A stretch of 21,088 nucleotides of DNA from a virus, in IMG/VR virus record IMGVR_UViG_3300037296_000205, positions 1 to 21,088 of that record; one strand, 5' to 3'. The notes beneath the pieces were generated by a model. That model saw only the letters and a list, made by a program, of their open reading frames with translations. It was not told the DNA's origin and did no database searches. The position numbers and the translations under genes were made by a program. This document shows positions 130 to 20,806 of the stretch, in pieces. Numbering within the stretch: the stretch's first letter is position 1; each line of letters opens with the position of its first letter.

Positions 130-147
130 CATGATATTTAATCCTTT
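130..147 (-). promoter_or_regulatory. Shine-Dalgarno and ATG pointing into the element 1 core
   Basis: On the minus strand AAAGGA (147-142) is followed 9 nt later by an ATG at 132-130, directly beside the core and just past the int stop codon. In the integrated state the frame runs antisense into the tRNA and is meaningless. In the predicted circle it reads in frame through the core into the gene whose integrated remnant is 9895-10131. Element 2 has the same AAGGA...AATATCATG arrangement at 10379-10364. Confidence 0.6.
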
Positions 148-3279: not shown

Positions 3280-3426
3280 TCACGATATGCCAGCCTGCGC
3301 CGCGTCCTTGGACGGGACCGCGCCTTGACGGGGTTTGGCACTATCAAGCCGGGTACTCGCCGTCTTACCCCTTGCAGTTAGGCCCAAGAACAAAAGGCCA
3401 GCGACTGCAAACGCTATTCCTTCCAA
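3280..3426 (-). CDS. Possible small single-span membrane protein after the portal gene
   Basis: A 48-residue frame starts with TTG at 3426, overlapping the end of the portal gene. Residues 3-18 (GIAFAVAGLLFLGLTA) are a credible membrane segment, followed by a basic, polar tail. The start codon is weak and no good Shine-Dalgarno is present, so it may not be translated. If real, it would be the last gene of the head operon; a holin-like or membrane-anchor role would be guesswork. Confidence 0.3.
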   Translation of the reverse strand: MEGIAFAVAGLLFLGLTARGKTASTRLDSAKPRQGAVPSKDAAQAGIS

Positions 3427-4484
3427 TCTACCAGATGCAGCGCCGCCGCCGGATCTACGCCAGCCGCCTTTGCCGCTGCCATCGCTTCGATGATTGTTTT
3501 CATGGCCCGCGCCCGTCCGCTCACGTCGAACGCTTGCAGGTTGCGCATGGTGTCGATCGTGACGGTGCCGCCCAGCTTGGCGGTGGCTTCCTCGGCCATC
3601 AGGTCCGCAATGGGTTGCAGCGTCCATACAGCGAGCGCGCGCTGGCTCTCGCGTATGGTATTTCCTTGTGCGGATCGTGTCAGCATTGAGGGGAGAACCC
3701 CAAAGGCCAGCGCAACGCCGTCCTGTGCAGCTCCTAGCGCCTCTACATGGGTCGCTTTTTGCAGATCCGGTGACAGTTGGTCAGGCTTTTGACCTAACTG
3801 CGGATTCAGGCCCGCCGCCGTCGACTGCGCCACGCCCTCGATCACAAGGGTAGATCCCCGCTTACCACGGAACGCCGCGCGCATCTCCTCCATATCCTCG
3901 GCGGAACTATCGGGCAGATGCACGATTTGGGAACCGATCGGCGCGTCTCGGAACACGTCACGCAAGGCGGTTTCGACTTCTTGCAGCAAGGATGCCGACA
4001 GCCCCGAACGTGTCAAAGGTGCCTGCCCGGTCCACGGTGTGACAGCATCAGAGCCAATGCGGAAATGCAGGATCTCGCCAGCCAATGCCGTCTCGGAACG
4101 CCCGCCGCCCGCCTCGGATATGCTCACGCGGTAGGCGCGCGGGATGCCGTTGCGGGTGCTAATATCCCAGTCAGACGCAGGGACAATGCCGTCCCCGGTA
4201 ATCAGCGCCACGAACTCGCCACGCAAGGCCAGAGAACGCCCCGCCAGCGCCATCGTGCGTCTGTCCAGCATGTCGGTGCCGATCACGTCAGACGCCGCCA
4301 GAGCGCCTTCCCAGAGCGATACACAGCTTTGCACGGTGCTTGTCAGCTCCGCCAAGCCCGATTGCCCAGAGAACCAGCTTTCACGCGCTGCCATGATTTG
4401 CGCCGTGTAGCCCGTGCCGCTCGATCGGGTTTCGTTTATAACGTTCCCGCCCGGAACGGTTACTTTGTTCTTAAAAGGCCACAT
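3414..4484 (-). CDS. Portal protein, HK97 family
   Basis: About 356 residues forming the dodecameric ring at the capsid vertex through which DNA is packaged and to which the neck attaches. The N-terminal MWPFKNK, the LWEGALAASDV and ALRGEFVALITGD stretches, and the GVLPSMLT...TIRESQRALAVWTLQPI region near the C-terminal third are typical of HK97-type portals. The start at 4484 has GGAGGG 7 nt upstream; the longer frame would begin with TTG. It lies 2 nt after the protease stop codon. It is slightly short for the family (often about 400), mainly at the C terminus. It is transcribed after capsid and protease, the reverse of the usual HK97 order. Confidence 0.92.
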   Translation of the reverse strand: MWPFKNKVTVPGGNVINETRSSGTGYTAQIMAARESWFSGQSGLAELTSTVQSCVSLWEGALAASDVIGTDMLDRRTMALAGRSLALRGEFVALITGDGIVPASDWDISTRNGIPRAYRVSISEAGGGRSETALAGEILHFRIGSDAVTPWTGQAPLTRSGLSASLLQEVETALRDVFRDAPIGSQIVHLPDSSAEDMEEMRAAFRGKRGSTLVIEGVAQSTAAGLNPQLGQKPDQLSPDLQKATHVEALGAAQDGVALAFGVLPSMLTRSAQGNTIRESQRALAVWTLQPIADLMAEEATAKLGGTVTIDTMRNLQAFDVSGRARAMKTIIEAMAAAKAAGVDPAAALHLVDWKE

Positions 4485-4486
4485 GC

Positions 4487-5044
4487 TCACGCCCTCCAAC
4501 GGTTAAGGGTGCGGTGCAGGCCATCGGGGCGAACGTTCCCGTCGAGAACATTCGACCACGCCCGCGCTTCGATCTGTGCCGCCGGATACGCTGGCCGGGT
4601 CACAGCAGATAATTCGTACAGATCCGCCTTGCCGATGGTGCGCAACATTCCAGCCCCGCGCCGCTCGATACGCTCGCCGCCAGATGCCACGCGAAAGCCC
4701 GGTGACAGCCCTTTGATAAGCCCCGAACCATGCGCCGCAAGGAAGTCCCGCGCCCAGCTCGTGCCATCGTCGAGGGTGGCCTCGATTTGCAAGGCTTCGT
4801 CGGTGTCAGTCAGATGCAAAGTGCCGGCTGATCTGCTTGCCAATGGCTTGTCATAGCTATGCCCTGCCAATAGGTGGATTTCATCGCCGCCGTTGATACG
4901 ATCGGCAAAGGCGCGCGGGGCGATAACTTCCAGCCGCCCCGGTGCCAGCTCGGTTTCTGCACCATAGGGGAACGTGGCACGAAGGCGGGTTGTACCGCCC
5001 TCGGCCCTGATCTCCAGCGTGCCTTTGTTACCGCCCCAAAGCAT
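4487..5044 (-). CDS. Prohead maturation protease, HK97 U35/S78 type
   Basis: A 185-residue serine protease that cleaves the scaffold-like delta domain of the capsid protein during head maturation. His about 62 lies in LLAGHSYDKPLASR, Ser about 114 in KGLSPGF, and the segment ELSAVTRPAYPAAQIEA closes the core fold; these are the hallmarks of the family. The ATG at 5044 overlaps the capsid stop (TAATG), giving coupled translation. The longer frame to 5299 is only an upstream extension inside the capsid gene. Confidence 0.92.
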   Translation of the reverse strand: MLWGGNKGTLEIRAEGGTTRLRATFPYGAETELAPGRLEVIAPRAFADRINGGDEIHLLAGHSYDKPLASRSAGTLHLTDTDEALQIEATLDDGTSWARDFLAAHGSGLIKGLSPGFRVASGGERIERRGAGMLRTIGKADLYELSAVTRPAYPAAQIEARAWSNVLDGNVRPDGLHRTLNRWRA

Positions 5045-6279
5045 TATGCTGCCGCCAAGTTGGTCAGGATACGGGTTTGCAGGCCACGCGGTGCCACAAA
5101 GTCCGCAGTGACAAGGCCAGTCAAAACGAGCTGCCCAGATCCCGCCTTGGTGTAGGGGTCGCGGATAAGATCCACGCCGCCATACAGGCCCATGTAACCC
5201 GGCGCGATGCCTTGCACGTTGGCCGTCATGATCGCCGTTTCGGTCGGGATCACATTGCTGATCGCCGGGGTGCCAACGTGCTTTGTCAGGCGGTCCCATT
5301 CGCTCACGGCGGTGCCGCTGATAAGCGTGTCGTCGAGGTCCGCCCAGATCGCAGGATCAAAGGCCAAATTGACTTGGCTTGCGCTTGTGATTGCGTTGGC
5401 TTCCATAAACGCCACGATCTCGGCACGGAACGCCGCCCATGTTGCCGCTGCGCTCACGTCCTCCACAGCAATGCCATAGGTTGCCGCGCCGGGGATGAAC
5501 CCCAAAGGCTGGCCCGCCGCGCCGCTGCCGTTGATAACCACGCGGTCCAGCTCGGTGCCGATCGCCGCGTTCAGATCCCGGCGGATAGCAGCTTCCAAAC
5601 CTTCGCCAGATTGTTTCAGCGTCTTGCGGCTGATAACCATTTGCGCGCCGCCCGTGTAATCCGGTGCCAAACTGCGCTCACTGGTGGCGTAAGCAGCAGC
5701 AGCGCCAACGTCACCAAGCTCGGTTGTCTGCCATCCGAACACAGCGCCAGCCGTTGCGACAGGGAAAGCAACAGAACCTTGCGCGATGTTGATACGTTGG
5801 ACGCCCAGACGCTCGGCCACGCTGCCGGGAAAGATCCGGTCGATAATGGGCCGGATCATTTCAGGCGATGGTGTCCCGGTTGATACGGTTTCGCCCGCGC
5901 GGGTTTCCAGTGCCGCATAGGGGATCGGGATGCCCTGATAGCCTCCAGCGCTCCGCATTTCTTCCACGATCTCGGCGGTGGCCCCGCTCATTGCCTTGCC
6001 TTCGTCGATCGCAAAAGCCACTTGCCGCAGCTCGAACTTGCCCATCATCTCGGCCCATTCTTTGCCGCTGCGGGTTTCCAGCTCGCCCTTGGCTTCGTCG
6101 CGTTGTTCGTCCTCGGATACCAGCGCCGCGCGGAACCGCACTTCGTTGTTGCGGTACTCCTGATCCAGCTTATCCATGCTGCGGGTTTCGTCCTCGGTGG
6201 GTGTCGGTTTGCCTACCAGCTCCGCAAGGTTCTGGCGGATCTCGGATTGACGGCGGGTAATTTTCAAAGATTCAAGCAT
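5044..6279 (-). CDS. Major capsid protein, HK97 family
   Basis: A 411-residue HK97-fold shell protein. Residues 1-110 are a charged, helical delta domain (LESLKITRRQSEIRQNLAELV...). The capsid core follows, with the typical RIFPGSVAERLGV start, SRKTLKQSGEGLEAAIRRDLNAAIG helix, GAAGQPLGF loop and C-terminal YGGVDLIRDPYTKA. AAGGA lies 7 nt before the ATG. The start overlaps the end of the HNH gene and the stop overlaps the protease start. Its presence shows that element 1 can in principle build its own small head instead of remodelling a helper's. Confidence 0.95.
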   Translation of the reverse strand: MLESLKITRRQSEIRQNLAELVGKPTPTEDETRSMDKLDQEYRNNEVRFRAALVSEDEQRDEAKGELETRSGKEWAEMMGKFELRQVAFAIDEGKAMSGATAEIVEEMRSAGGYQGIPIPYAALETRAGETVSTGTPSPEMIRPIIDRIFPGSVAERLGVQRINIAQGSVAFPVATAGAVFGWQTTELGDVGAAAAYATSERSLAPDYTGGAQMVISRKTLKQSGEGLEAAIRRDLNAAIGTELDRVVINGSGAAGQPLGFIPGAATYGIAVEDVSAAATWAAFRAEIVAFMEANAITSASQVNLAFDPAIWADLDDTLISGTAVSEWDRLTKHVGTPAISNVIPTETAIMTANVQGIAPGYMGLYGGVDLIRDPYTKAGSGQLVLTGLVTADFVAPRGLQTRILTNLAAA

Positions 6280-6604
6280 GGTGTTTTCCTTTTTGCTCGG
6301 TGGTTTCGCGCATCATTGCGCTGATAGAATCCCGCCACGCTTGGCGGTCGGGTGGTGTCGGTTTGTGTCCGCACTCAATTCTGGTTTTTTTTGTATGGCA
6401 CGATGCACAAAGCGTCTGGCATTGCGCCGGGTCGAAACTGTGCTGCGGGTGGGTGCGTACCGGATGGATATGGTCCACCTCCAGCCGCCGCCGATCGCCG
6501 CATTTAACGCAGGCCCATTCATCGCGCTCTAGCACGGCATGGCGAACAGCCTGCCAACGCTTCGTCGAGGTCACGCGCTTGCTATGGCGGAAATGCTCTT
6601 TCAT
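6272..6604 (-). CDS. HNH endonuclease associated with packaging
   Basis: The product has 110 residues. Cys pairs (C32-C35 in CVKCG and C66-C69 in CASC), the DH dyad (D44-H45 in EVDHIHPV) and the final His70 in SCHTKKT form a zinc-supported HNH nuclease. Small HNH proteins of this kind lie next to terminase genes in HK97-like phages and are needed for DNA cleavage at cos by the terminase complex. The start at 6604 overlaps the upstream stop (ATGA) and has GAGGAA before it; the longer frame to 6685 lacks a signal. Here the gene sits between head closure and capsid. Confidence 0.92.
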   Translation of the reverse strand: MKEHFRHSKRVTSTKRWQAVRHAVLERDEWACVKCGDRRRLEVDHIHPVRTHPQHSFDPAQCQTLCASCHTKKTRIECGHKPTPPDRQAWRDSISAMMRETTEQKGKHHA

Positions 6605-6942
6605 CCGTTGTTCCTCGCGGTCGCGCTCAATTCGAGGAATTGCAAACGCCCGTCTGCGCTTTCCTTGATCCCGGTGATATTCCAATCAAGGCCCGCGTGC
6701 TGGACCCGGTCCGCTGCCGTGATCGCCCGCGAAAATGCCGAACTGCGAACCGTTAACCGGGTTTGCAGGTCAGACGTGACAGATCCCGCCAATACCTTTT
6801 CGCCGTCCTTAATGTCGGAACGGTGCGCCCAGATGGTGCCGATCGGTTCAAATTCGCCCGTCACGTTGCCGTAACCATCGTCTATCATTTCGGCCCGCGT
6901 GATCACGATACGGCGGTCGAGTTTGCTTGCACTCATGCCCAT
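6601..6942 (-). CDS. Head-tail joining (head closure) protein
   Basis: The product has 113 residues. The N-terminal LDRRIVITRAEMIDDGYGNVTGEFEPIGTIWAHRSDIKDGE is the recognisable pattern of the SPP1 gp16/HK97 gp10-like head-tail joining family. The rest forms the beta-barrel expected (TRLTVRSSAF, DWNITGIKES). It should plug the filled portal and offer the docking surface for a tail, here presumably a helper's. ATG at 6942 and at 6936 are both possible; both overlap the terminase end. The stop overlaps the HNH start. Confidence 0.88.
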   Translation of the reverse strand: MGMSASKLDRRIVITRAEMIDDGYGNVTGEFEPIGTIWAHRSDIKDGEKVLAGSVTSDLQTRLTVRSSAFSRAITAADRVQHAGLDWNITGIKESADGRLQFLELSATARNNG

Positions 6943-8462
6943 GCCAAACGCGCCTTTTTGTTGATTGCCGCCTTACGCCTCATGCCCTCGGCAACAGCAA
7001 GAACAGCCGCCGCCGCCGCGTCGATACGGCCCAAGGAACGCGCCTTCGCCAGCTTGTGATTGTTCGCCGGGTCAACAAGCGTGATCGCGTCAGAGAACGC
7101 AGAACGCAGCAGCAGGGAAGGAGTGGTCAGGATCTCGCCATCAAACAGCGCGCGCCGGAACCGCTCAATATCTTCGCTGCCATCTTTCCAGCCAAAGCCC
7201 CGCCAAATGAAGGGAACCCGATCAAGGCCCGCCGATTGCATGGCCTCGCTAAATTCAGCATGGCGGAACCGATCGCCCACTATGCAAGCAATGTCTGCCC
7301 CGTCTGCCAGCTTCACAATCTCCGACAGCCATAGACCAGGGGGAACGGTGTTTTCGCCCAGGACAGACAATTCGCCCCGATCGTGCATTTCGGTATAGCG
7401 CCCGCTCACGCCATCCGCCGCGCCTCGATCCGCAAGGGAAGGCTTTGCAGGGAAGGTGCCGACAGCTTCCAGCCGTCCGGTGTCAGGCCAGAACAGCGCC
7501 GCCGCACTCATTGAACGGGAACCGCCCAGATCCACGCCAAGGATGCACGGCCCGTCACGCGCTGGCATGTCATCCGGCCCGACTTCGCAGGTCATCCATT
7601 CGTCGAGGGTGACAAGAACAGACCTATCGTCAGACGCCACGCGCTCGTTGCGGTTTAGGTTTCTGAAGCTGGATAGGGCAGATCCGCCCCGTGCAATCGC
7701 CCGTTGTGCCTGTGCCTGTAGCCATTCAGCAGTTGGCCCGATGCCCTCTTTGCTGCCGGGGTTTGCTATGAGAAGGCTTGCCAGATCGTCAGCAGGTTGC
7801 CCCATGTCCGGGCGATGCTCTTGAACGTAGGTGCCGTTTGGTGGCTCGTCTAACCAGCGTGAAAAGGTGTTCGCATCATCCGGCGCGCTCGTCGAGATAA
7901 TCAGCGCCCGCCCGTCACGTTTGCCAAGCCCGGACAGAATAGCGTTTTCGAGGTTGTCGCCCTTGTCCCGTTCCCACGCCGCCCGCTCGTCGAGGATCGC
8001 CAGCGTAGGCGCGCCGCCCAGAATAGACTTGCCATCCGCTGCGATAACACGCGCCAGCCCGCCGCCGTTTAGGTCGGTTTCGACTTCCAGCTTAGAGCCG
8101 CGCCGGATGGTGAATTGCTCTTGTTCATCCTCCGGTAGCCCTTGGATAAAGCCCACAAGGAACGCAAACGCCGTGCGCGCTTGATCTCGGTTGCGCGCGC
8201 AGAATATGATTTCGCGTTTAGGCTGGCACTCGATTTCGCCCAGCAGATGCCCCAAGGCAAGGCCAGCGGATAGGGCAGTCTTAGCGTTGCCCCTGCCAAT
8301 GCTTAGACAGGCGACAGACGTGCCCTTAGAGAACGCGCCCCGCACGAAGTCTTTTTGGAATTTTGCCAGCTTCAGCTTTTTGCCAGCCAAACGCCCTTCG
8401 GGAACGATCAACGTTGGCAAGAACCGCAGCGCCGCCGTGGCCTCTTTGCTTGCCCTAGTCAT
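6933..8462 (-). CDS. terL: Terminase large subunit, HK97/Terminase_1 type
   Basis: A 509-residue packaging motor. The ATPase shows Walker A GRGNAKT (56-62), Walker B LAILDE (about 154-159) and the coupling motif STSAP (about 190). The nuclease half has ILGVDLGGSRS with Asp about 311 and a late Asp in GRIDAAAAAVLA (about 479). The order and spacing match HK97-like large terminases. Only a weak GAG precedes the ATG, and a 9-bp hairpin (8474-8500) lies close upstream, so translation may be controlled or coupled to the small frame at 8455-8586. No intact small terminase gene is recognised in element 1. Confidence 0.94.
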   Translation of the reverse strand: MTRASKEATAALRFLPTLIVPEGRLAGKKLKLAKFQKDFVRGAFSKGTSVACLSIGRGNAKTALSAGLALGHLLGEIECQPKREIIFCARNRDQARTAFAFLVGFIQGLPEDEQEQFTIRRGSKLEVETDLNGGGLARVIAADGKSILGGAPTLAILDERAAWERDKGDNLENAILSGLGKRDGRALIISTSAPDDANTFSRWLDEPPNGTYVQEHRPDMGQPADDLASLLIANPGSKEGIGPTAEWLQAQAQRAIARGGSALSSFRNLNRNERVASDDRSVLVTLDEWMTCEVGPDDMPARDGPCILGVDLGGSRSMSAAALFWPDTGRLEAVGTFPAKPSLADRGAADGVSGRYTEMHDRGELSVLGENTVPPGLWLSEIVKLADGADIACIVGDRFRHAEFSEAMQSAGLDRVPFIWRGFGWKDGSEDIERFRRALFDGEILTTPSLLLRSAFSDAITLVDPANNHKLAKARSLGRIDAAAAAVLAVAEGMRRKAAINKKARLAWA

Positions 8463-9637: not shown

Positions 9638-9898
9638 TCAGCTTTCGATCGGGTCAAAATCTCCATCATCATCGCCAGCGTATGCGAACAGGTCAGCGAC
9701 CAGTGACCGCATCATCGACAGTTGCTTAGGGGATGGTTTCCAGTTTCTGCGCCGCGCCTGCTTTGCAACAGACAGTGCGAAGCCCTTGGCCCATGTGTTT
9801 TCTGCGCGTTGGGCAACCACAGGCATATGATGCAACAGACGCTCGATTTCGTCAGGTGTCGCTGAGCGTACAATCGGCTGGCCGTCGATATAGCTCAT
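9638..9898 (-). CDS. Conserved small protein of the right-end pair
   Basis: The product has 86 residues. A basic centre (SVAKQARRRNWKPSPKQLSMMRSLV) matches the element 2 gene at 20200-20454 (SILRQAKNPKWKPTARQQPIIEKLI), sharing the pattern of a helix, W-K-P and a second helix. The tail is acidic in both. The start overlaps the stop of the preceding gene by 4 nt in both elements, so the pair is a conserved unit. The W-K-P-x-x-x-Q pattern occurs in phage proteins that bind nucleic acid, but no function is claimed. Confidence 0.78.
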   Translation of the reverse strand: MSYIDGQPIVRSATPDEIERLLHHMPVVAQRAENTWAKGFALSVAKQARRRNWKPSPKQLSMMRSLVADLFAYAGDDDGDFDPIES

Positions 9899-10131
9899 GC
9901 CAGCACCTCGCCGTCCAGAACGCCGAACAGCGCCGCCGATGCCGTGCGATAGGCGGTATCATCGTCCAACGTGACCAGAGCGGCCATCGCCAGCGCCTGC
10001 CGTTCGCCCGTGGTCAGCCGCGCCTTGAGGATCAGCACGAAGCCCTCCCAAGCGTCCGGCGTTCCTGCTGTCAGGACGTAGCCCAGCGACTTAGACGCGC
10101 GCTTATGGCGGTCCTTGGCATACAAAGACAT
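9895..10131 (-). CDS. C-terminal part of an attP-spanning gene (153 aa predicted in the element 1 circle)
   Basis: From ATG 10131 the frame gives 78 residues (MSLYAK...), strongly similar to the element 2 protein at 20451-20687 over its whole length (LYAK-RHKRA, VLT-GT-AW, ARL, LVTLDD-AY). That ATG has no Shine-Dalgarno, and the frame is open upstream to the core at 10337 with similarity continuing there (AKEN, KRR/QRR-NA). I therefore infer a longer protein whose start lies at the other end of the element (ATG 132-130) and is joined only after excision. In the present array the upstream in-frame codons contain no ATG, GTG or TTG before a TAA inside element 2. Function unknown; the mature region is helical and basic at its start. 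Confidence 0.8.
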   Translation of the reverse strand: MSLYAKDRHKRASKSLGYVLTAGTPDAWEGFVLILKARLTTGERQALAMAALVTLDDDTAYRTASAALFGVLDGEVLA

Positions 10132-10336
10132 TGCATTTGCGCGGCGCTTCGGGCTATCGTTGCCGGAAGAAATGTCGCGTTTCTTATGCTTTTGAACGCC
10201 GTTGACCTTTGCCGAGGTCGCGGCGTTTTCTTTTGCGTAGATGTTCGCCAGACACTGGTTTTCACCAATGTTTTCAATGGTAGGTTTTTGGTGGTTCGCC
10301 AGCTTAAGCGGCTGATAAGCCTCAAACTGTGCCGTT
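10132..10336 (-). other. Open 5' part of the attP-spanning gene, detached from its start by integration
   Basis: The frame of the 78-aa gene stays open over these 205 nt. One nt completes the codon split by the core, then 68 codons follow. The segment encodes stretches such as AQFEAYQPLK and NIYAKENAATSAK, and parts align with the equivalent stretch of element 2 (20688-20915). No start codon occurs in it. With ATG 132-130 joined at the core the product would begin M-F-G-D-P-G-R and total 153 residues. Confidence 0.7.
10195..10234 (+). terminator. Plus-strand intrinsic terminator at the right end of element 1
   Basis: AACGCCG (10195-10201) pairs with CGGCGTT (10221-10227), with an inner GACCT/AGGTC stem, followed by a T-rich tract (TTTTCTTTT). 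It lies inside the minus-strand open frame. Element 2 has an unrelated hairpin with the same tract at the same codons (20753-20790), so position and form are conserved while the stem sequence differs. Confidence 0.6.
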
Positions 10337-10351
10337 CTCCCGGGATCGCCA
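10337..10351 (+). repeat. Middle attachment core (element 1/element 2 junction)
   Basis: An exact copy of the 15-bp tRNA core. It is the right end of element 1 and the left end of element 2. Flanking bases on either side match neither the tRNA flank nor each other, as expected for a junction of two different elements. Confidence 0.92.
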
Positions 10352-10363
10352 TTGTTCTTTCTG

Positions 10364-10379
10364 CATGATATTTTCCTTT
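10364..10379 (-). promoter_or_regulatory. Shine-Dalgarno and ATG pointing into the element 2 core
   Basis: On the minus strand AAAAGGA precedes AAATATC and the ATG at 10366-10364. Reading M-Q-K-E-Q it enters the core as W-R-S-R-E. Joined to the right end of element 2 it stays open into the gene at 20687. Joined to element 1, as it now is, the frame ends at TGA 13 codons into the frame. The leader AAGGA...AATATCATG matches that of element 1. Confidence 0.6.
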
Positions 10380-10401: not shown

Positions 10402-10431
10402 TGTGTCCCGCTTCTGGATAGGCGTGTCCCA
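10402..10431 (+). repeat. Putative integrase arm sites, left arm of element 2
   Basis: TGTGTCCCG (10402-10410) and the close copy CGTGTCCCA (10423-10431) lie 21 bp apart, about two helical turns. Two exact TGTGTCCCG copies lie in the right arm (20807-20815 and 20862-20870), all in the same orientation. Repeats flanking a core on both sides are what arm-type sites of tyrosine integrases look like. Confidence 0.6.
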
Positions 10432-10432
10432 T

Positions 10433-11440
10433 TTAGGCCACCCCTAAAAGTAATTTAACCATACGCTCTCGGTCGGCGGCGCGGGTGTACCGCTCGACTT
10501 CTGAAAGGCTCATGTGACCAGCCATCGCGGCTATCTGGTGGGTAGATGATCCTTTTTCAGCCCAATAAATACAGAACGCTTTGCGCAACCCATGCAGTCG
10601 GGCTGTCATTTTCGCCTTAACCGCTGCATCGCGGAATAGGTTGCCAAGACTTTCGGCGGTGTATGGTTTGCCGCGCTCAGTTAGGATAAAGGCCGGGGAA
10701 ATGTCGGGGGTCCGATCAATCACTTCCTTCAATTCTGGCGTAATTGGAACGCGGGCGGTTGTGCCGCTTTTCTGTCGATCATAGACAAGTAAGTCACCCT
10801 TGATATTGACCCTACCCAGCTTTGCCAGATCAGCTCGTGCGGCCCCAGTGTACAAGGCAAGGTCAAAAACTAGCCGCTCGCGCGTAAAAATAGGCCAACG
10901 CGTTTGAAACATTGCAATTTCATCTGCCTCAGCAACAGGAAAACCCTCAATCTTTGGGCGGTCTAATTCAATGCCCGTAAGCGGGTTCTTTGTGATAAAT
11001 CCAAGTCGGCGCAAATGCTCAAAAACCGGTTTGAGCGCCTTATATTCATTAACGGCGGCCCATCCACCTTTGGCGTAAAGTGCGCGTTCAATAACAGGTC
11101 CGGTAATTGTCGAGACTGGACGCGTGCCTTGTGCAGCGCGATAGCGGGCAAAGATCGCAGCGCGACTGTTTTTTGTGTTCTTGGAAAACTTTGACCACTT
11201 TTCGTTACCAGACGTGTAGAGGTCCAATGCCCAAGCAAACGTGCCTGCATCCGGCGTTTCTGTGCTTGGTGGCATGTCCTGCCAACGGGCATGTTCTGCC
11301 GCCCACGCTGCCAACACTTTCGGGTCAGTAGGGTGCAATCCGTGAACGCCCAAAGAGCGCTCTACATCGCCACGGCGATAGGTATGAAACCAGCGGCCAC
11401 GCCGTTGCTTAGAACGAAGGTGAGGGATTTTTGTTTTCAC
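10433..11440 (-). CDS. int: Tyrosine recombinase (integrase) of element 2
   Basis: The product has 335 residues. Catalytic residues: Arg 202 (TGAARADLAKLG), Lys 224 (DRQKSG), His 283 and Arg 286 (HGLRK), His 309 (AGHMSLSE) and Tyr 318 (ERYTRAA). A GTG start at 11440 overlaps the stop of the preceding gene (GTGA) with AGGTG upstream. It shares the general plan of the first integrase but is clearly divergent. It is the last gene of an operon that also carries portal, capsid and gpW, so recombinase and head proteins would share a transcript. Its stop lies about 80 bp from the core, with arm-like repeats between. Confidence 0.95.
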   Translation of the reverse strand: MKTKIPHLRSKQRRGRWFHTYRRGDVERSLGVHGLHPTDPKVLAAWAAEHARWQDMPPSTETPDAGTFAWALDLYTSGNEKWSKFSKNTKNSRAAIFARYRAAQGTRPVSTITGPVIERALYAKGGWAAVNEYKALKPVFEHLRRLGFITKNPLTGIELDRPKIEGFPVAEADEIAMFQTRWPIFTRERLVFDLALYTGAARADLAKLGRVNIKGDLLVYDRQKSGTTARVPITPELKEVIDRTPDISPAFILTERGKPYTAESLGNLFRDAAVKAKMTARLHGLRKAFCIYWAEKGSSTHQIAAMAGHMSLSEVERYTRAADRERMVKLLLGVA

Positions 11441-11628: not shown

Positions 11629-11843
11629 TACAGACCTTTCGAGCTGCTGAATTTGATTTTAGACGGGCGGCGGCTGGTCAGGGCGCGCAGGCGGGCTTCG
11701 AGGTCCGCAATAGCGGCACCCATTTCGGCATCGGTGCCGAAACGGATACGCTCGTCACCTATCTGCGCTTCGCGGATGCCCTTGGCGCGATTCATGATAA
11801 GGGTATCGCGCCAAGCTTCCAGCTCTGTGGCTGTGATCGCCAT
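11628..11843 (-). CDS. gpW-like head-tail joining protein
   Basis: About 71 residues beginning MAITATELEAWRDTLIMNRAKGIREAQIGDERIRFG. Length, the two helices around a short beta hairpin, and the position next to capsid and portal fit the lambda gpW family, which completes filled heads before tail attachment. The start at 11843 overlaps the capsid stop (TGATG); the longer frame to 11885 lies inside the capsid gene. No gpFII-like partner is seen nearby, so the helper may have to provide the rest of the neck. Confidence 0.82.
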   Translation of the reverse strand: MAITATELEAWRDTLIMNRAKGIREAQIGDERIRFGTDAEMGAAIADLEARLRALTSRRPSKIKFSSSKGL

Positions 11844-13606
11844 CAGCCGACCCGGTGCCAGCCGCGGTAGTCTACCCAGCCGCACCCAAAGTCTAGGCGG
11901 ACCTTCATCTGCACCCCATCCACCTCGAAACCTTGGCGGGTCTCGATCTGCGGACCGGGCGCGCCTTCGAGATAGGCATATTCCAGACCGTCGATCATGG
12001 CGGGATCAGCCGCAATGTACCATTGTTCGTCTTCGGTTAGCCGCGCTTCGGTCAGCAGTGTCAGGTTCTCGAACGGGTTGTGATCTGCGGTCTTTGTCGC
12101 GGCGATTTCGGCCAGCGCCTGTTCCGCGACTGTTTCCAACTCCGCAGGCACCAGTACGAAGCGCGGGGTGGCTTCGATCAATTCACCCGCAAGGCCCTTT
12201 TGCTTGCGCATGGCCAGCCGCGCCGCTGCAAGGGTGGCAAGCGCTGGCGCGCCGTAGGTGGCGGTCAGGTTGGCGTGATCGGCATGGAACACGCCGGTGC
12301 CATCGCTCATTGCGGGGTTTGCGGTGATCTTTTTGACAAGCTCTGCATTCTCGAAAGCCCGCGCGGCGTTGCCCAGCTTCGCGGGGATCTGCATGAAGGC
12401 CCCTACATCGTCGTTGATAATCGCCTGCCGTGAAATGGCAAAGATGCGCCCGAACGTCTCAACGCTGTAGGTCTCTGCGCTTTCCTCGATCGTGCCGTGC
12501 GTAAATTCGCCGCCTTCGTTCACCTTCTCCAGCTCGGGGCCTTCACCGAATTGCAGCGCGCGCTTTGCGCGGAAGTCGCGGGCCGTGGTCTGCCGTGCAA
12601 GCTGTCGCGCGCCGGACGGTGCAGCGGCATAGGCACGGCGCAGCTCGCGGCCCGTGGCATCGCCAAGGATCAGCGAAAAGTCGGACGTGGTGTGCAGGGC
12701 GCGTGTCGTGAGGGTATCGACTGACATGGCCGTGGTCGAGACGCCCGCGCGGGTCAGGCAATCGCGGGCCAGATCGGGCAGTGTCAGGCCCGCGTATTGC
12801 CGCGCCGGTGCAGAGATTTCATGCGTGGGGTTATGACGCGCGAACAGCGCCTCACCTGCGCGTGTCACAATCACGGCGGGGTCGGTGTTGTCTGCCCCTA
12901 CTGTGACGCGGGTTGTGCGTGTGGCGGTGCTGGCGCTGCGCTGTTGCATCGCCTCAAATGCAGCGGCACGGGCTTCGTCCGCCGTTGCATCTGCATCAAT
13001 CTGCGCGTCTGCCCAAGCGCGGGTCAGGCCAGCGGTGTCCGCCATGGTGCGAATTGCCGCGTTTGTATCTGCGCGGGTCGCTGTGACGGGCGCGGCGTCT
13101 GTCGTCTGGATCGTGGTTTCGTCGTTTGGCATTTCGTTTTCTCCATTGCGAAAATGCGCCCCGGCATCAGCAGGGACAGGGACAAGGGAAACCTCTACGG
13201 GCTTCCATTTGATTGCGGTACGGACGCGGGTTTGGCCGCGCATTTCGTCTTTCCACGCGGACACCTGATAGCCGATAGACAGGCCGCGCAGGGTGCCTTC
13301 CCCAACATCTGCCAGCACGGATTGCGCCGCCGTGTTGTTGCGGAATTTCAGGCGCGCCCAAAGGCCCTCGGGGCGCAGCTCTACCGCCTCGATCACCCCC
13401 AACTGGTCGCGGGTGCTGGTGCTGCGGTGCGCGTCCAGAACGGGCGCGCCCACCAAAGCGGACAGATCAGCGCCGGAAAGGTCCAGCCGCTCGATGTAGC
13501 CGGGGCGCTGTGTCTCTGCCCCGGTCGAGATAATCGCCTCAACGGTGCGGGCGTCCAGATCAACGCTGTTTGGTGCGGGTGTCAGGGCGCGGATATGTAG
13601 GCTCAT
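11843..13606 (-). CDS. Prohead protease-major capsid fusion protein
   Basis: The product has 587 residues. Residues 1-150 are an HK97-type prohead protease: His about 60 in LDAHRSTSTRDQLG, Ser about 110 in RGLSIGY, and the VEVSLVPVPADAGA segment. A low-complexity Ala/Thr-rich linker (about 160-235) may act as scaffold. The rest is a capsid shell domain (RALQFGEGPELEKVNEGGEF, FGRIFAISRQAIINDD, GTGVFHADHANL). Protease-capsid fusions of this kind are known in lambda/Mu-like heads of proteobacteria. GAAGG lies upstream; the start overlaps the portal stop (ATGA). It must release its own shell domain during maturation. Confidence 0.92.
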   Translation of the reverse strand: MSLHIRALTPAPNSVDLDARTVEAIISTGAETQRPGYIERLDLSGADLSALVGAPVLDAHRSTSTRDQLGVIEAVELRPEGLWARLKFRNNTAAQSVLADVGEGTLRGLSIGYQVSAWKDEMRGQTRVRTAIKWKPVEVSLVPVPADAGAHFRNGENEMPNDETTIQTTDAAPVTATRADTNAAIRTMADTAGLTRAWADAQIDADATADEARAAAFEAMQQRSASTATRTTRVTVGADNTDPAVIVTRAGEALFARHNPTHEISAPARQYAGLTLPDLARDCLTRAGVSTTAMSVDTLTTRALHTTSDFSLILGDATGRELRRAYAAAPSGARQLARQTTARDFRAKRALQFGEGPELEKVNEGGEFTHGTIEESAETYSVETFGRIFAISRQAIINDDVGAFMQIPAKLGNAARAFENAELVKKITANPAMSDGTGVFHADHANLTATYGAPALATLAAARLAMRKQKGLAGELIEATPRFVLVPAELETVAEQALAEIAATKTADHNPFENLTLLTEARLTEDEQWYIAADPAMIDGLEYAYLEGAPGPQIETRQGFEVDGVQMKVRLDFGCGWVDYRGWHRVG

Positions 13607-14982
13607 GTGTCGTCGCCTTCTTCGTCGGTTTCGGGTTGTTCTGTCGGTGCTGGCGCGGGTGCCTTGGGCGCGGGCGCGCGGCTGGCATCACGGGCAATCT
13701 CGCGGTCGAGCTGGTCAATGTCGCGGCCCCGGCCTGCAACAACTTCCTCGCGGGATTTCAACCCGACCTCGATAGCGCGGGCGTCCGCCTCTACCTCGTT
13801 TTTCGGATCAACCCACTGCCACCCCGGCGGGACAAAGCGAACGCCGGTAAAGTCGCCGGATGCAGCGCCGCCCGCCTCGATCTCGCCAGAAAGGTCCAGA
13901 ACCTCGATCCAGCGCGCCCAAAGCGGGCGCAGCAACTTGCCCTCGATCAGATATTTTTGCAGCATTTCGGCGCGGCGGCGGAACTCCAACAACCCCACGC
14001 GGGCCGAACTGTAATTCGTCTGTGTCAGATCGCCTGTCAGGGCCTCAAAGGTCAGACCGGCACCCGCCGCAATCTCTCGATCCTGCGCGCGCAGAAACTC
14101 GTTTGCCTGTGCCACCCCTTGCCCCGGCTGTGAAAAGGTCACATCGGCGTTGCCCGGAAGGATGCGCATTGCACCCGGCTCTAGCGCCACATTCAGCGCG
14201 CCACCCTCTTGCTGGCCTTCAAAGCCTGCGAAACTGCCGTCAGGATCACGGACAAAGCCGGTCAGCAGGGCGGCGGTTTTGATCTGCATCAGCAGGGCGT
14301 CGGACGCTTCGTCACGGTCGCGCAGTTTCAGCAGGACGGGTGCCAGCCATGAGAGGCCGCGCACCTGCCCTGCGAAAAGCTGGTCAAAGATGTGCAGCAC
14401 GTCCCGCGCAGGGACGCGCACCGCCGCGCCGTAGGTGACGAAGGGGGTGCCGGGGGCTTCGGGCAGGATGTGATAGGCGGTCACTTCGTCGTCGGCGTCG
14501 AACTCGATACCGGCCACAATGCGCGCGCCGTTGCCCAGATCGCGGTTTATCGTTGGGTCTACCTGTTCGGCTGGCACCAGCCGCAGGCGGATCGCGCCGC
14601 CCCGCGTGATGTGAATGCGGATGAACGCTTCACCATCGCGCACAAGGCCGCGCACGGCGGTCAGCAGGACGGGCAAAATCAACGCCTCGAACTGGTCATT
14701 CAGCATCGCGGCGGTGTCTGTGTTGGGGTGCTCCGCGCGCACCTGCCATCCCTTGCCCACCAGTGCGGACCCCCACGTCTCTACCAGCCGGTTGCCGTAG
14801 GGCGTGTTGAGGTATTGCGCAGCGGCGCGCACCTGCGCAGGGCCGCGCGCCGCAAGAGTCGAGGTTTGGGGCGAGGTCAGGACAGATGCACCATCCCAGC
14901 GCCGCCCGCCGCCGCCTGCGTCAATCTGGCGTTTACGGATCGGTTTTCCGGTGTGGTCGAGAATTTCAAAGGCTTCGCTCAT
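13603..14982 (-). CDS. Portal protein, lambda gpB family
   Basis: A 459-residue portal ring subunit. The features AAAQYLNTPYGNRLVETWGSALVGKGWQV, VRGLVRDGEAFIRI, RLRLVPAEQVDPTI, DVLHIFDQLFAGQVRGLSWLAPVLLKLRDRDEASDALLMQIKTAALLTGFV and SSARVGLLEFRRRAEMLQ are diagnostic of lambda-type portals. The C-terminal 40 residues are Pro/Ala-rich and acidic. The start overlaps the HTH gene stop by 4 nt. It is unrelated to the HK97-type portal of element 1. Confidence 0.95.
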   Translation of the reverse strand: MSEAFEILDHTGKPIRKRQIDAGGGGRRWDGASVLTSPQTSTLAARGPAQVRAAAQYLNTPYGNRLVETWGSALVGKGWQVRAEHPNTDTAAMLNDQFEALILPVLLTAVRGLVRDGEAFIRIHITRGGAIRLRLVPAEQVDPTINRDLGNGARIVAGIEFDADDEVTAYHILPEAPGTPFVTYGAAVRVPARDVLHIFDQLFAGQVRGLSWLAPVLLKLRDRDEASDALLMQIKTAALLTGFVRDPDGSFAGFEGQQEGGALNVALEPGAMRILPGNADVTFSQPGQGVAQANEFLRAQDREIAAGAGLTFEALTGDLTQTNYSSARVGLLEFRRRAEMLQKYLIEGKLLRPLWARWIEVLDLSGEIEAGGAASGDFTGVRFVPPGWQWVDPKNEVEADARAIEVGLKSREEVVAGRGRDIDQLDREIARDASRAPAPKAPAPAPTEQPETDEEGDDT

Positions 14983-15503
14983 TCTTCACCACCCATGGCA
15001 ACTTGAACCTCTAAAATGGCGATTAAGGTTTGGGCTAGAATGGTGCGCAGATTGACAATGCAAAAAGCGGGGCTGGCGCTATAGCTGTCCTCAAACCGCT
15101 TGTTTGTCGCTTCACTCGTTGCCGCGATACTGTCGAAAATATCAGCGGTCCAGCTTCCCGAATTATCACGCCAAAAGATCAGGAAGCGTTCAGCCTCAAA
15201 GGTTGACCGTTGAAAATATGCATTGCCGTCTTCGTCTTCAATCCATTCCTCTACGAGCTTTTTGCCGCACAAGAGCATCCCGACACGGGCCAGATCATCG
15301 CTTTCGGTTGCACGTTTCAGGCGGGCGTGAACGCTCACAAGGATTGTCTCAAAGTCCGAAAACCGCTTCCATCCTTTGACTTGCATAAAGTCAAACAATC
15401 CGGGCTGTCTCACTCTCGTGCGGATTGTCTCGCGGGGTTCACCAGCGATTTCCGCAACTTCGCGGATTAGCATCGGCTTAAACCGCAATCCCTTATCAGT
15501 CAT
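14979..15503 (-). CDS. Helix-turn-helix regulator (homologue of the element 1 gene at 1444-1878)
   Basis: The product has 174 residues. The N-terminal IREVAEIAGEPRETIRTRVRQPG is a helix-turn-helix, followed by a wing-like segment (WKRFSDFETILVSVHARL). The C-terminal half includes FLIFWRDNSGSWTADIFDS and NLRTILAQTLIAILEVQ, comparable in pattern and position with parts of the element 1 regulator. The start at 15503 is set by GGAGA 6 nt upstream; the longer frame begins with TTG. It heads the portal-capsid-gpW-int gene run and a large dyad lies directly upstream, so it may control those genes. Confidence 0.75.
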   Translation of the reverse strand: MTDKGLRFKPMLIREVAEIAGEPRETIRTRVRQPGLFDFMQVKGWKRFSDFETILVSVHARLKRATESDDLARVGMLLCGKKLVEEWIEDEDGNAYFQRSTFEAERFLIFWRDNSGSWTADIFDSIAATSEATNKRFEDSYSASPAFCIVNLRTILAQTLIAILEVQVAMGGEE

Positions 15504-15666
15504 AACCGTCTCCAAAAGTGTTGGTGCGCCACCTGTTTAATCTCTTTTAACAGAATTTAGGTGATGCGCAACCTTTTTTCACGATCAGACCACCGGCACC
15601 TCTGTGTCACCCGACAACGCGCGGTAAAGATTGAGCAAAATGAGGTTTGGGAGCGTCATTCACAGA
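15504..15666. promoter_or_regulatory. Intergenic dyad upstream of the HTH-portal-capsid operon
   Basis: The arms TGCGC-CACCTGTTTAA (15525-15540) and TTTTAACAG...AGGTG..TGCGCA (15545-15570) form an imperfect dyad with matching blocks CTGTT/AACAG, CACCT/AGGTG and TGCGC/GCGCA. It lies 22 nt before the HTH start codon in AT-rich DNA, a good place for a promoter and operator. No confident -35/-10 pair is seen. The rest of the interval holds nothing I can identify. Confidence 0.4.
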
Positions 15667-16023
15667 TCAGGGTTCCATCGCCATGAGCTTTTCGACCTCA
15701 ACGGCAACGGCTTCACTCACTCCGACCAACGCGCTGCGATATTCTTGGCAGTTCGGTGATGCGTTGCAATCATCCACAACCATTTCCAGTGCTTTGACCA
15801 AGTTATTCAAATGAAGAACGGTTAAGTAAAAAGGCTCAAGGTCTTTTCTCTTTGGCGTATGTGATTGCTGTGGGTTGGTCGGCGCGGCGGATTGGTCCAC
15901 ACCATCTGAGGTTATGAACAACGGCTCACCCCGCGCCAGCGCTGTCGCAGGGTCATAGAGCATATTCAGGTTGAGCCGCATTGTTGTGGCGTCTTGCGGT
16001 GTCGGCATTGTGTAGTTTTTCAT
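15667..16023 (-). CDS. Small hypothetical protein of the regulatory operon
   Basis: The product has 118 residues. The start at 16023 is chosen for GGAAG upstream and the 4-nt overlap with the preceding stop. The first 70 residues are polar; the last 50 are helical (EPFYLTVLHLNNLVKALEMVV, SALVGVSEAVAVEVEKLMAME). The position and helical tail resemble the small genes of element 1 (1954-2381). No function assigned. Confidence 0.65.
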   Translation of the reverse strand: MKNYTMPTPQDATTMRLNLNMLYDPATALARGEPLFITSDGVDQSAAPTNPQQSHTPKRKDLEPFYLTVLHLNNLVKALEMVVDDCNASPNCQEYRSALVGVSEAVAVEVEKLMAMEP

Positions 16024-16352
16024 TGCTTCCGCGCCCCCATGATGGTTTCTTCCTCGCGGTTGAGGCCCCAATCAAAGCCATCCACGATGGTTTCAATCTG
16101 CGCGTCAACTTCTGTTGAATAGGTGGACAGAATTGACCAAAGCGCGCCGTTGAAACCGGCACTTGGTACGCTGCCCCCATTGTTCTGGAACAGTACCTCG
16201 CGGCAATCGTCGATCCTTTCCATGAGCGCAATCTTCTCTTGCGCCCGCGCCATCCACTCGCGTTCTGTCAGGCTTTCAACGGGTGAAAGCGTCTTCATGT
16301 ATTTGATTTCAGGCAAGCCGGTATCGGCCCCTGTCTCGGGGGTGTCTGTCAT
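16020..16352 (-). CDS. Small hypothetical protein of the regulatory operon
   Basis: A 110-residue acidic protein without recognised motifs. AAAGGAT precedes the ATG, 22 nt after the Arc-type gene. Predicted mainly helical (TEREWMARAQEKIALMERIDDCREVLF). It occupies the first slot after the Arc gene, like 2166-2381 in element 1, but no clear similarity is seen. Confidence 0.68.
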   Translation of the reverse strand: MTDTPETGADTGLPEIKYMKTLSPVESLTEREWMARAQEKIALMERIDDCREVLFQNNGGSVPSAGFNGALWSILSTYSTEVDAQIETIVDGFDWGLNREEETIMGARKQ

Positions 16353-16374
16353 GGTCTATCCTTTCGAGGTTGAT

Positions 16375-16530
16375 TTAAGCCGTTTCGGCTTCGTCTAGGC
16401 GCGCCATCCTTTCGCGGATCGCGCGGATGATTTCGCTGTTTTGAGAGGATGCGTTTGCCGCCGCCTGTGCAGCAATCCAGTCCTTTAGTTCAGGCGGCAA
16501 GCGCATTTGAAATTGAATGTTCGATGCCAT
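16375..16530 (-). CDS. Arc-type ribbon-helix-helix repressor (minus-strand partner)
   Basis: The product has 51 residues. NIQFQMRLPPELKDWIAAQ is followed by ASSQNSEIIRAIRERM, almost identical to the element 1 protein at 2396-2551 and different mainly at the C-terminal tail. The order strand-helix-helix is that of Arc. AGGTG lies 5 nt before the ATG. It is transcribed from the conserved TTGACG/GATAGT promoter. Near-identity with element 1 suggests that each repressor could act on the other element's operator. Confidence 0.88.
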   Translation of the reverse strand: MASNIQFQMRLPPELKDWIAAQAAANASSQNSEIIRAIRERMARLDEAETA

Positions 16531-16631
16531 TTTTTCACCTCATCATATCATATGGCGACTATCGCCATTTGATATGATTGCGTCAAGGGTAAAAGCATAT
16601 CAAAAAGCGATGATCTCAAAAGGATATGCGA
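16531..16631. promoter_or_regulatory. Divergent promoter/operator region of element 2
   Basis: The minus promoter is TTGACG (16586-16581), a 17-bp spacer and GATAGT (16563-16558), the -10 lying within the palindrome GGCGACTATCGCC (16554-16566). A second, imperfect site GCGATGATCTC (16607-16617) precedes the plus-strand Arc gene. Compared with element 1 the palindrome arm changed on both sides (T..A to G..C), which preserves symmetry and supports function. Confidence 0.75.
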
Positions 16632-16901
16632 ATGACTGATTCACCAAGTAGAAAACAAGATCAATTTATTGTTCGTTTTCCAGACGGTATGCGAGAGGCG
16701 GTCAAGGAACGCGCGGCAAAAGATGGACGTAGTATGAACGCGCAGATCATTCACGCCTTGGATTTTTATTTTTTGTATGGGCCTGAAGAAGGAAAAGATG
16801 CAAACCAGTCAATCCATGGTATGGACACAACTTCTAGGGCAATTCTGAAAGATATTCAGAAAAGACTGATAGCCTTAGAAAATCGCTTTGAAAGAAAATG
16901 A
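16632..16901 (+). CDS. Arc-type ribbon-helix-helix repressor (plus strand)
   Basis: The product has 89 residues. QDQFIVRFPDGMREAVKERAAKDGRSMNAQIIHALDFYF is the Arc-type domain, followed by a helical tail (RAILKDIQKRLIALENRFERK) suited to oligomerisation. The start at 16632 has AAAAGGA upstream; an ATG two codons earlier is too close to it. The paralogue at 2651-2932 shares the core. It is the only plus-strand gene of element 2 and presumably holds the satellite silent. Confidence 0.88.
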   Translation: MTDSPSRKQDQFIVRFPDGMREAVKERAAKDGRSMNAQIIHALDFYFLYGPEEGKDANQSIHGMDTTSRAILKDIQKRLIALENRFERK

Positions 16902-17073
16902 TGTATGGCCCGTCCTGCGGGGCCGTGTCCAGTTTCTGGACATGGCTTTGTAAAATTTGTGCGCCACGCTCCACAAAGGATCAAAGCCGCGCACTGTCGA
17001 GGTTTACCCACTCACCGACTAACGGGACCATATTTCGCGAACAAGGAAGCGAGGGCATGGCCTGCCCTGTCTC
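16902..17073. other. Non-coding gap between convergent genes, with a hairpin
   Basis: TGTCCAG (16926-16932) and CTGGACA (16936-16942) form a tight 7-bp hairpin 25 nt after the plus-strand Arc stop, but without a T-run. It may end that transcript or the terL transcript from the other side. Nothing else is recognised. It corresponds in position to 2933-3279 of element 1, without sequence likeness. Confidence 0.4.
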
Positions 17074-18852
17074 TTATCGTGCCATCCAGCTTGATTTCAG
17101 GACCGGCGCGGGGGCCTTCACCGGACCTTCGGCACGGGCCAGCGACACGCGCAGGGCGTCCCAATCGGGCCGGATGATCTGGCGCGCGGCCAATGCGTAG
17201 ACCAGGCAATCCAGACCTTCGGCGCGCCGCCCTGGTATCCGCTCGAAACTGCGCACCGGCTGGCCCCGCTTGTACCGCAGAACCGCCTTTTCGCTTGCAA
17301 CTTGCTCGTACCAGACGCGGGGCAAATCATCAGACACGCGAATTGACCCGCCGCGCGATAAGCGGGCAAATAGCTGCGATTTTGCGGTGTCCACCCCGAC
17401 AATCCAAAGCCGCGCGCCGGTCTTTGTCTTTGAGCCTGCGCGCTCGATCAAGGGCCGGTTGCCAGCGGCCCCCTTGATCGCCACCACCTTGCGGCGGGTG
17501 CGCGGCATAGCGAAAGCGGTAACCCGGTGCATGGTCGTACCGTCGCCAGCATCCACCGCCAAGGCGTCGACCCCGATTTTGCCGCCCAGATCGTGCGGGA
17601 ACCGCTCGCGCAGGGATGCATCAAGGCTGGCCCATGTGGTATCGTCGTCCCACTCGCCCCAGATCACACGATGCCCCAGAACGTAGGCTGTGCCGCTCTC
17701 TGCCCAGCCTATATAGGTCAGCTCTAGGCGGTCGTGCTGCACGTCACAGCCTACGGACAGGGCCAGCACGTCCGCAGGCACCGCGTCCAGCCCGAACGCC
17801 TCGCCCCGCTGCGCTAGGCTTTCGTCGTCCAGCTCCTCGCCCTCGCCACGCCAGCCCTCGCCCAGAATGGTATTCACGAAGGTTTGCAGCGTCGAGGGAT
17901 CATCCTTGGCGCCTATAAATTCAATCGCCAGCCGCGCCCAGCTTGCGTTGAGGTGCAGCGACACAAGCGCGTTCATCTTGAACCCGGCATGGCCCTTGAT
18001 TTCGGGCCGTGTGGCGCGCCACTCGCCCGCCTCTACCATCGCCGGTTTGCAGGTCTCTGCAATCTCGGCCGTGCAATGCGGACAGCGCCAGCGGGCCGTT
18101 TCCGGCGCGCCATCATCCCAGATAATCGCGTCCCAGAGGATCTCCGAAAAGGTGCCGCATTCCGGGCAAGGCACCTCGAAAATGCGCATATCGGATTGCG
18201 CATAGGCGCGCAGGACGTGGCTTGTATCTTCATGCACGGGCGTAGACCCCAGCACAATCTTGCGGTCTGGAAAGGACAAGGTGCGCCGCTCTGCCAGCAC
18301 AATGGGCGAACCTTCAGCCGTTGCGGCCATCCCGTCCGCTTCGTCGATGAACAAAATTCGTACGTTGTGCCTGCGCAGGTTGCGCGGGGCCTTTGCCGCA
18401 ACCACTTTGAGCGAACCGCCCGGGAAGCGCCGCGACAAAAGCGTGTTGCGATCGCCGTCCTCTCGATCATCTGACAGCGCCTTGGCAACCACTGGTGATT
18501 CCGCAAATATCGGCTCAACATCGCTCACCACATAGTCGCGGCAATCGGATTCAGCGGGCAGCAGGCACAGAATAGGCGCAGGCTCATTAGCGACGAAGGA
18601 CGCCACCGCCGATGTGAGAAGGGTTGTGAACCCTACGCGAACCGGCTTCACCAGCGTCACCCGCTCTAAATCAGGGTCGCCAATGGCGTCCGCTATCTCG
18701 CGTTGAAAGGGCCAGAGCTGCACCGGCCCCGGCTGTGCGCTCACCCCTTCGGGCAGGACCACATGGCCCTCGATCCATTCAGACAGGCGCAGGCGGGGTG
18801 CGGGGATCAAAGAGCGCAGGGCGTTGCGCGATACCTGTTCAATCGTCGGCAT
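17074..18852 (-). CDS. terL: Terminase large subunit, lambda GpA family
   Basis: A 592-residue packaging ATPase-nuclease. The variant Walker A is KPVRVGFTT (69-77), Walker B ILFIDEAD (166-173) and the coupling motif LGSTP (about 201). A zinc ribbon (C229, C232, C257, C260) lies between the halves. The nuclease has SVGCDVQHD with Asp about 370 and ALAVDAGDG later, and GRRAEGLDCLVYALAA near the end. ATG 18852 has GGAG 7 nt upstream and overlaps terS by 14 nt; an upstream in-frame TTG is less likely. It is the last gene of the far-end operon, convergent with Arc(+). Confidence 0.95.
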   Translation of the reverse strand: MPTIEQVSRNALRSLIPAPRLRLSEWIEGHVVLPEGVSAQPGPVQLWPFQREIADAIGDPDLERVTLVKPVRVGFTTLLTSAVASFVANEPAPILCLLPAESDCRDYVVSDVEPIFAESPVVAKALSDDREDGDRNTLLSRRFPGGSLKVVAAKAPRNLRRHNVRILFIDEADGMAATAEGSPIVLAERRTLSFPDRKIVLGSTPVHEDTSHVLRAYAQSDMRIFEVPCPECGTFSEILWDAIIWDDGAPETARWRCPHCTAEIAETCKPAMVEAGEWRATRPEIKGHAGFKMNALVSLHLNASWARLAIEFIGAKDDPSTLQTFVNTILGEGWRGEGEELDDESLAQRGEAFGLDAVPADVLALSVGCDVQHDRLELTYIGWAESGTAYVLGHRVIWGEWDDDTTWASLDASLRERFPHDLGGKIGVDALAVDAGDGTTMHRVTAFAMPRTRRKVVAIKGAAGNRPLIERAGSKTKTGARLWIVGVDTAKSQLFARLSRGGSIRVSDDLPRVWYEQVASEKAVLRYKRGQPVRSFERIPGRRAEGLDCLVYALAARQIIRPDWDALRVSLARAEGPVKAPAPVLKSSWMAR

Positions 18853-19345
18853 TGCCAAGCTCCGTCAGGGTGTCACGCAAGGCGCGGTCAAAGGCTTGCA
18901 CGGTGCTGGCCTCGATCAACGGCAGATCGGCGCGGATGCGCGCAGGGATCGCCATGAGACGCGCGCGAAGCTGGCGCAGAATGTCGGACCACGCCCGCTC
19001 CACCTCGCCCGCCTCTACCAGCTCACCGCGCAGCTTTTGGTTCTTGATCGCCATGCTATCGGCTTGCTCTTTCGCCAGCCGCGCCCGCTCCGTTGTCAGG
19101 GAGGTCACTTGATCCTCACCGCCGCGCCCGGATGCGGTGCCGCGCAGGTGTGTGACATAGGCACGGACAGTCGCGGCGAGGTCATAGGCGTCTTTGCTGT
19201 AATGCACCGCGATGCCCCGTTTTTTCAGCTCCGAAAGCATGGCGGGCGAGATGCCCAGCAGGTCACAAAGGTCAGCGCCGCCGATGCGGTGGACCATCTG
19301 CCCACCATCGCCCAACGGAAGCTCGTTCAAAATTCTCAATTTCAA
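18839..19345 (-). CDS. terS: Terminase small subunit, Nu1-like
   Basis: Up to 168 residues. A winged-helix segment (GGADLCDLLGISPAMLSELKKRGI) is followed by the Nu1-type helix TTERARLAKEQADSMAIKNQKLRGELVEAGEVERAWSDILRQLRARLMAIPARI. It should recognise the element's cos site and guide TerL. The start is uncertain: TTG at 19345, another TTG two codons in with AAGGGG well placed, or ATG at 19297 (152 aa). It overlaps terL by 14 nt. This gene type is missing or relic in element 1. Confidence 0.88.
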   Translation of the reverse strand: MKLRILNELPLGDGGQMVHRIGGADLCDLLGISPAMLSELKKRGIAVHYSKDAYDLAATVRAYVTHLRGTASGRGGEDQVTSLTTERARLAKEQADSMAIKNQKLRGELVEAGEVERAWSDILRQLRARLMAIPARIRADLPLIEASTVQAFDRALRDTLTELGNADD

Positions 19346-20687: not shown

Positions 20688-20752
20688 TGCGTTGCGGCGC
20701 TGTTTTGCTGTATTGTTCTCGGAAAGCTGTGAGGCTTTTTTTAAAGACTTTG

Positions 20753-20790: not shown

Positions 20791-20806
20791 GCCGAAATGT
20801 AAGATG

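Follow-up and report, generated by a model that had tools for sequence, protein, structure and literature searches.

A reading frame that spans attP links the integrase end to a conserved gene in rebuilt circles of Rhodobacterales integrative elements

The window, by which we mean the whole 21,088-nucleotide stretch analysed (IMG/VR record IMGVR_UViG_3300037296_000205), holds two tandem elements of ~10.2-10.6 kb, here called E1 and E2, at a tRNA-Arg(tct) gene that ARAGORN places at 51-127 on the plus strand. A 15-bp att core, CTCCCGGGATCGCCA, occurs three times (positions given without strand): on the int side of E1 (113-127), between the elements as a copy common to the gene A end of E1 and the int end of E2 (10337-10351), and at the gene A end of E2 (20916-20930). 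Each element carries a tyrosine integrase gene (int) at its left end and a 78-aa minus-strand gene, gene A, at its right end. The integrases, also on the minus strand, lie at 138-1283 in E1 (Pfam Phage_integrase, 4e-15; stop codon TAA at 140-138) and at 10433-11440 in E2 (Pfam, 6e-13), and the minus-strand gene A bodies at 9895-10131 in E1, where the protein begins MSLYAK, and at 20451-20687 in E2. The stop of gene A in E1 is overlapped by a further minus-strand gene, gene B (9638-9898), which is conserved in the relative L004.

Both elements also encode a packaging and head module on the minus strand, co-directional with gene A and, in E1, downstream of it. The E1 module (3414-8462) comprises TerL, a head completion protein, HNH, an HK97 capsid, an S78 protease and a portal, and the E2 module (11843-19345) a Nu1-like TerS, a gpA TerL, a lambda-type portal and a protease-capsid gene. 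The two modules thus differ in terminase (TerL_ATPase type versus gpA), portal and capsid types; gene A and the Arc genes are common to the two neighbours. The Arc-like regulators form divergent pairs (2396-2932 in E1, 16375-16901 in E2) between the late module and the int operon, of which they are likely the control point. We recognised no tail or lysis genes in either element. In their length of ~10 kb, an integrase, their own terminase, portal, protease and capsid genes, HNH in E1 and the lack of a tail module, E1 and E2 resemble capsid-forming PICI-like satellites (cf-PICIs), from which they differ in that no AlpA or primase was recognised in them. Gene A itself had no match in Pfam or PHROGs, and its predicted fold, which is all helical (AlphaFold pLDDT 85.7), had no Foldseek match in PDB or BFVD. 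The recognisable regulators, which are the Arc-like ones, lie away from gene A, and the position of the gene before replication and packaging genes suggests that it may serve to multiply the circle.

When the ends of each element were joined in silico at the core, an uninterrupted reading frame was obtained that starts beside the integrase, crosses attP and enters gene A. For E1, joining 132-113 to 10336-9895 gives 153 aa starting ATG-TTT-GGC-GAT, with the peptide MFGDPGRTAQFEAYQPLK... across the core; for E2, joining 10366-10337 to 20915-20451 gives 164 aa starting ATG-CAG-AAA, the crossover points being resolved only to within the core. These are the two continuous frames that a preliminary description of this DNA had proposed, and they were reproduced here. 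Its AAGGA leaders were also found, with the SD-like motif 7-9 nt before the int-side start in both elements: the E1 leader (130-146, minus strand; AAGGA at 146-142, ATG at 132-130) overlaps the 3' end of int and points into the core, and the E2 leader occupies 10364-10378 on the minus strand, with its ATG at 10366-10364. In the integrated state the attP-side extensions of gene A (minus strand; 10132-10351 in E1, 20688-20930 in E2) are open, and from core to body they contain no ATG, GTG or TTG in the gene A frame except the body ATG, which lacks a Shine-Dalgarno sequence in both elements, as had been stated. For E2 the frame continuity stood, and the chosen start became uncertain: the int stop TAA is directly followed by an earlier in-frame ATG (10432-10430; feature 10430-10435, minus strand), and the peptide MGHxxPxxGH encoded from it recurs in the relative G161. 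For these two reasons, the true E2 start may lie 22 codons upstream of the one first chosen.

attP was reconstructed for a non-redundant set of 25 Rhodobacterales elements whose cores lie in seven kinds of tRNA gene. To find the cores we looked, without regard to frame, only for repeats common to the tRNA (or the end of the contig) and the stretch upstream of gene A. The frame of gene A crosses the core from an int-side ATG or GTG in 21 of the 25, at tRNA genes for Arg (several core types), Cys, Glu, Met and Phe, and all three frames are represented in the core-to-body offset. The int-side starts mostly abut or overlap the int stop, as ATGA, GTGA or TAATG. In the other four (tRNA-Thr, Phe and Leu), a leader ORF from the int side passes through the core and ends in an overlap with the ATG of gene A. 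The stops or frame breaks that the preliminary description had named as evidence against its proposal were therefore absent from all 21 spanning elements, each open with an int-side start, and in the four remaining elements a leader ORF spans the core and is coupled to gene A. The integrase gene ends before the core in E1, E2 and most relatives; in G004 and G568a, which are the same element, only the last codons and stop of int lie inside it. The gene A ATG of G568a is itself inside the core, so that this provirus keeps the ATG and loses only the SD sequence of the element.

Two natural contigs show a frame that leads from int through the core. L242 (IMGVR_UViG_3300045993_000611, 9848 bp) has no detectable tRNA, and its capsid gene is split over the contig ends, with residues 1-335 of the E1 capsid at the right end and 351-408 at the left; it is therefore a circle or a head-to-tail repeat opened within the capsid gene. 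Here int overlaps, through ATGA, a 180-aa ORF that runs through the tRNA-Cys core into gene A, which is followed by an AAA ATPase, TerL and HNH, so the frame is intact in a naturally assembled circle-like contig. In L271, a leader ORF joined to int by GTGA passes through a tRNA-Cys core and is then ATGA-coupled to an HTH protein, which resembles replication initiators in our own reading, with no database match behind the likeness.

The antisense strand of a tRNA frequently has more than one open frame, and one could suppose that any two ends would seem joined by chance or through an annotation artefact. An open frame with a start was indeed found in about half of swapped pairs. When int ends and gene A ends were re-paired at random, success averaged 11.2 and reached at most 18 of 21, and the observed 21 of 21 was attained in none of 5000 permutations. 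The two other frames succeeded in only 1 of 42 cases, and under a Markov null 5.3 of the 21 frames would be open from core to body. The 21 elements do not amount to 21 independent events, as some of them are related (E1 and G568a 89%, G403 and G463 82%, over parts), with integrases of several divergent types. Chance joining of ends is ruled out by the swap test and, given also the ATGA-type coupling to int and the circle-like contig, we regard the artefact explanation as scarcely credible. The attP-spanning arrangement is confirmed and general.

A further explanation is that the provirus makes gene A protein from an internal ATG or from starts supplied by the host, the attP-spanning ORF being a harmless by-product of a gene that lies next to att. 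E1, E2 and close relatives have the internal methionine (at MSLYAK), and its ATG, although without an SD sequence, could yield a short product from integrated E1 and E2 and some relatives; a few proviruses have an in-frame ATG or GTG on the host side. Against this, the internal methionine is missing in most relatives and is without SD in E1 and E2, and the match in frame between gene A and its own int end lies far above random re-pairing. We therefore consider this explanation very improbable.

Selection acts differently on the two parts of the spanning frame. Between related pairs, dN/dS is ~0.1-0.5 for the gene A body and ~0.35-1.2 for the extension; the body is under purifying selection and the attP-derived extension is near neutral. 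The peptide encoded by attP therefore hardly matters, and its openness and frame do: what is kept across attP is the frame and not the sequence. Peptide conservation in the extension was accordingly dropped as an argument. The preliminary description had taken the AKEN similarity between the upstream parts as a sign of translation, and this did not hold up. The motif is overlapped by a strong hairpin that is terminator-like on the strand opposite gene A, GGCGTTTTCTTTT; in E1 the hairpin (10194-10228) and its U tract lie within the gene A extension (10194-10235, plus strand; fold -21.8 kcal/mol, z -3.9), and E2 has an equivalent hairpin and U tract (20752-20792, plus strand; -23.0 kcal/mol, z -2.7). 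Because it is confounded by this hairpin, AKEN by itself is no evidence of translation. The A-rich side of the hairpin reads K-E-N in many relatives. In L008 and L009 the hairpin lies outside the frame of gene A, and it was from these loci that the hairpin alone was first suspected as the cause of the upstream similarity, an idea that was not retained; L008 looks like the leader-ORF type found in L141 and G221.

Profile searches placed gene A in 40 of 397 genomes of one family and in 66 of 393 genomes of its order, with Oceaniglobus and Roseobacter (Rhodobacterales) among the named carriers, and at 68 further loci in IMG/VR. A class-level profile search of 385 genomes found no gene A outside the centre genome, phage and plasmid record collections held no homologue, and the exact attP pattern of E1 had no match in IMG/VR. 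The relatives fall into two architectures. Class I has int, an alpA-like gene and gene A in the same direction, with int upstream and gene A having its own start; this start is in frame in 25 of 26 cases and mostly in an ATGA overlap with the stop of the preceding gene. In class II, to which the elements of the window belong, gene A and int lie at opposite ends, mostly ~10 kb apart, with int beside an antisense tRNA. AlpA is found in L003 and an AAA ATPase in L242.

In tandem insertions the integrase directly before gene A belongs to the neighbour. The chromosomal junction between the E2 int and the E1 gene A (10432-10131) is out of frame, as is the leader of the foreign int in all eight tandem-type junctions (E2/E1, G392, G403, G486c, G486d, L109, L132 and L146), a count that takes the upstream int of the incomplete contigs L109 and L146 as the neighbour's and would hold two more exceptions if it were their own. 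With three frames, eight mismatches of eight are only suggestive ((2/3)^8 = 0.04), and they may stem from the different int types of the neighbours. A further tandem arrangement is a four-element array in G486 (C1:2774512-2918835; loci L192, L247, L185, L248, L189, L245, L246 and L249) at one tRNA-Cys, in which elements of 28-41 kb are each bounded by the same core and three of the four carry gene A. Elements c and d match in frame with their own int ends; in element e, which is of prophage size, the int/gene A pair of the element is mismatched and has no ATG or GTG, so that two of the three array prophages agree and one fails. The switch had been described as lying in a satellite, which fits the ~10-kb elements and is too narrow as a limit given those of 28-41 kb in G486.

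From this anatomy we consider it probable that integration strips gene A of its initiation region and that excision reconnects the gene to int. Gene A would be the first gene of the replication and packaging operon and would contain attP in its 5' end. As the cistron that directly follows int in the circle, it would be read in a frame running through the tRNA-derived core. Recombination in the core on integration would keep the start codon and its ribosome-binding site next to the tRNA, on the int side, with the headless gene A body left at the far end of the element. Gene A would be silent in the provirus because its start codon and ribosome-binding site remain at the int end, and the co-directional genes behind it plausibly would be silent too. 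Excision, or entry as a circle, would rejoin int to gene A, so that int-operon transcription, with translation coupled to it, would continue into the late module; the purpose may be that no replication or packaging begins before excision. A broader version, in which a translational, circle-only switch is widespread in Rhodobacterales satellites and prophages, its frame is re-fitted whenever the integrase or tRNA changes and int-type-specific frames spare the gene A of tandem neighbours, leaving each gene A to be turned on by excision of its own element, is conceivable, and we put it forward tentatively, at a little under an even chance.

The switch might instead act on transcription only, with the late operon coming under the int promoter and the open frame merely preventing Rho-dependent termination, the N-terminus and start being incidental. 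In E1 the arc-int and late blocks point the same way once the element is circular, the end that carries gene A showed no sigma-70-like promoter, the amino acids of the extension are barely constrained, and Tn916 works in this manner: its transfer and replication genes lack a promoter when integrated and are expressed only once excision has placed them behind one from the opposite end (PMC11658703). On the other hand, the starts are coupled to the int stop, and 9 of the 21 integrated gene A copies have no in-frame ATG or GTG at all, so that the int-side start is needed for protein and not for message alone. We thus judge a purely transcriptional switch unlikely, and the transcriptional and translational readings are compatible and can both hold. 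In Tn916 the switch is transcriptional, through Porf7 and canT antitermination of T1 (PMC11658703). The gene order and direction of the elements studied here would fit late genes brought behind an int-side promoter by excision, and their genes too would be silent until then; they differ in that the start codon and reading frame cross the junction too.

A comparable attP is known from mycobacteriophage BPs and its relatives, where it lies inside the repressor gene 33 and gives integration-dependent immunity: integration removes the 3' end of the repressor with its degradation tag, and the repressor is ON in the provirus (PMC4557955). E1, E2 and their relatives likewise have attP within an ORF adjacent to int, circle and provirus encode different products, and integration would act as the switch. 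Here it is the 5' start that is removed and the gene would be expected to be OFF in the provirus, which is the opposite end and the opposite sign. Further, gene A is no recognised repressor, several integrase types and tRNA targets share the arrangement, and the C-terminal trimming of BPs to an active shorter protein has no counterpart, no SD-preceded start being left in integrated E1 or E2. In archaeal suicidal (SSV1-type) integrases the att site lies within the integrase gene, which is broken by integration, and recombinases that disrupt their own gene have been described as exclusive to archaea (review PMC8371274). The likeness is a gene that is complete in the circle alone and is cut at an internal site by integration; the differences are that in E1 and E2 the att site lies outside an intact int, that it is the next gene that loses its start, and that the elements are bacterial.

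In the literature searched we found no description of an attP-spanning first gene, or of any attP-spanning gene, in satellites, cf-PICIs included, which does not prove its absence. The arrangement would extend integration-dependent control from mycobacteriophage repressors to a switch of the 5' start. If the proposed mechanism is true, it is a switch built from recombination and without a repressor, in which the leading gene of the multiplication module receives its start from the act of excision, and by which small phage-like parasites of marine bacteria keep genes silent while integrated. It could explain how satellites, while integrated, escape the harm of replicating in place. The arrangement is repeated across several integrase types and seven kinds of tRNA target, which makes the switch accessible to tests by simple genetics and comparative genomics. 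It would also account for provirus annotations that cut gene A short or miss it. Provirus records in IMG/VR (L095, L104, L127, L137 and others) often stop at a predicted gene boundary next to int or gene A, a truncation that removes the att sites and the true start of gene A.
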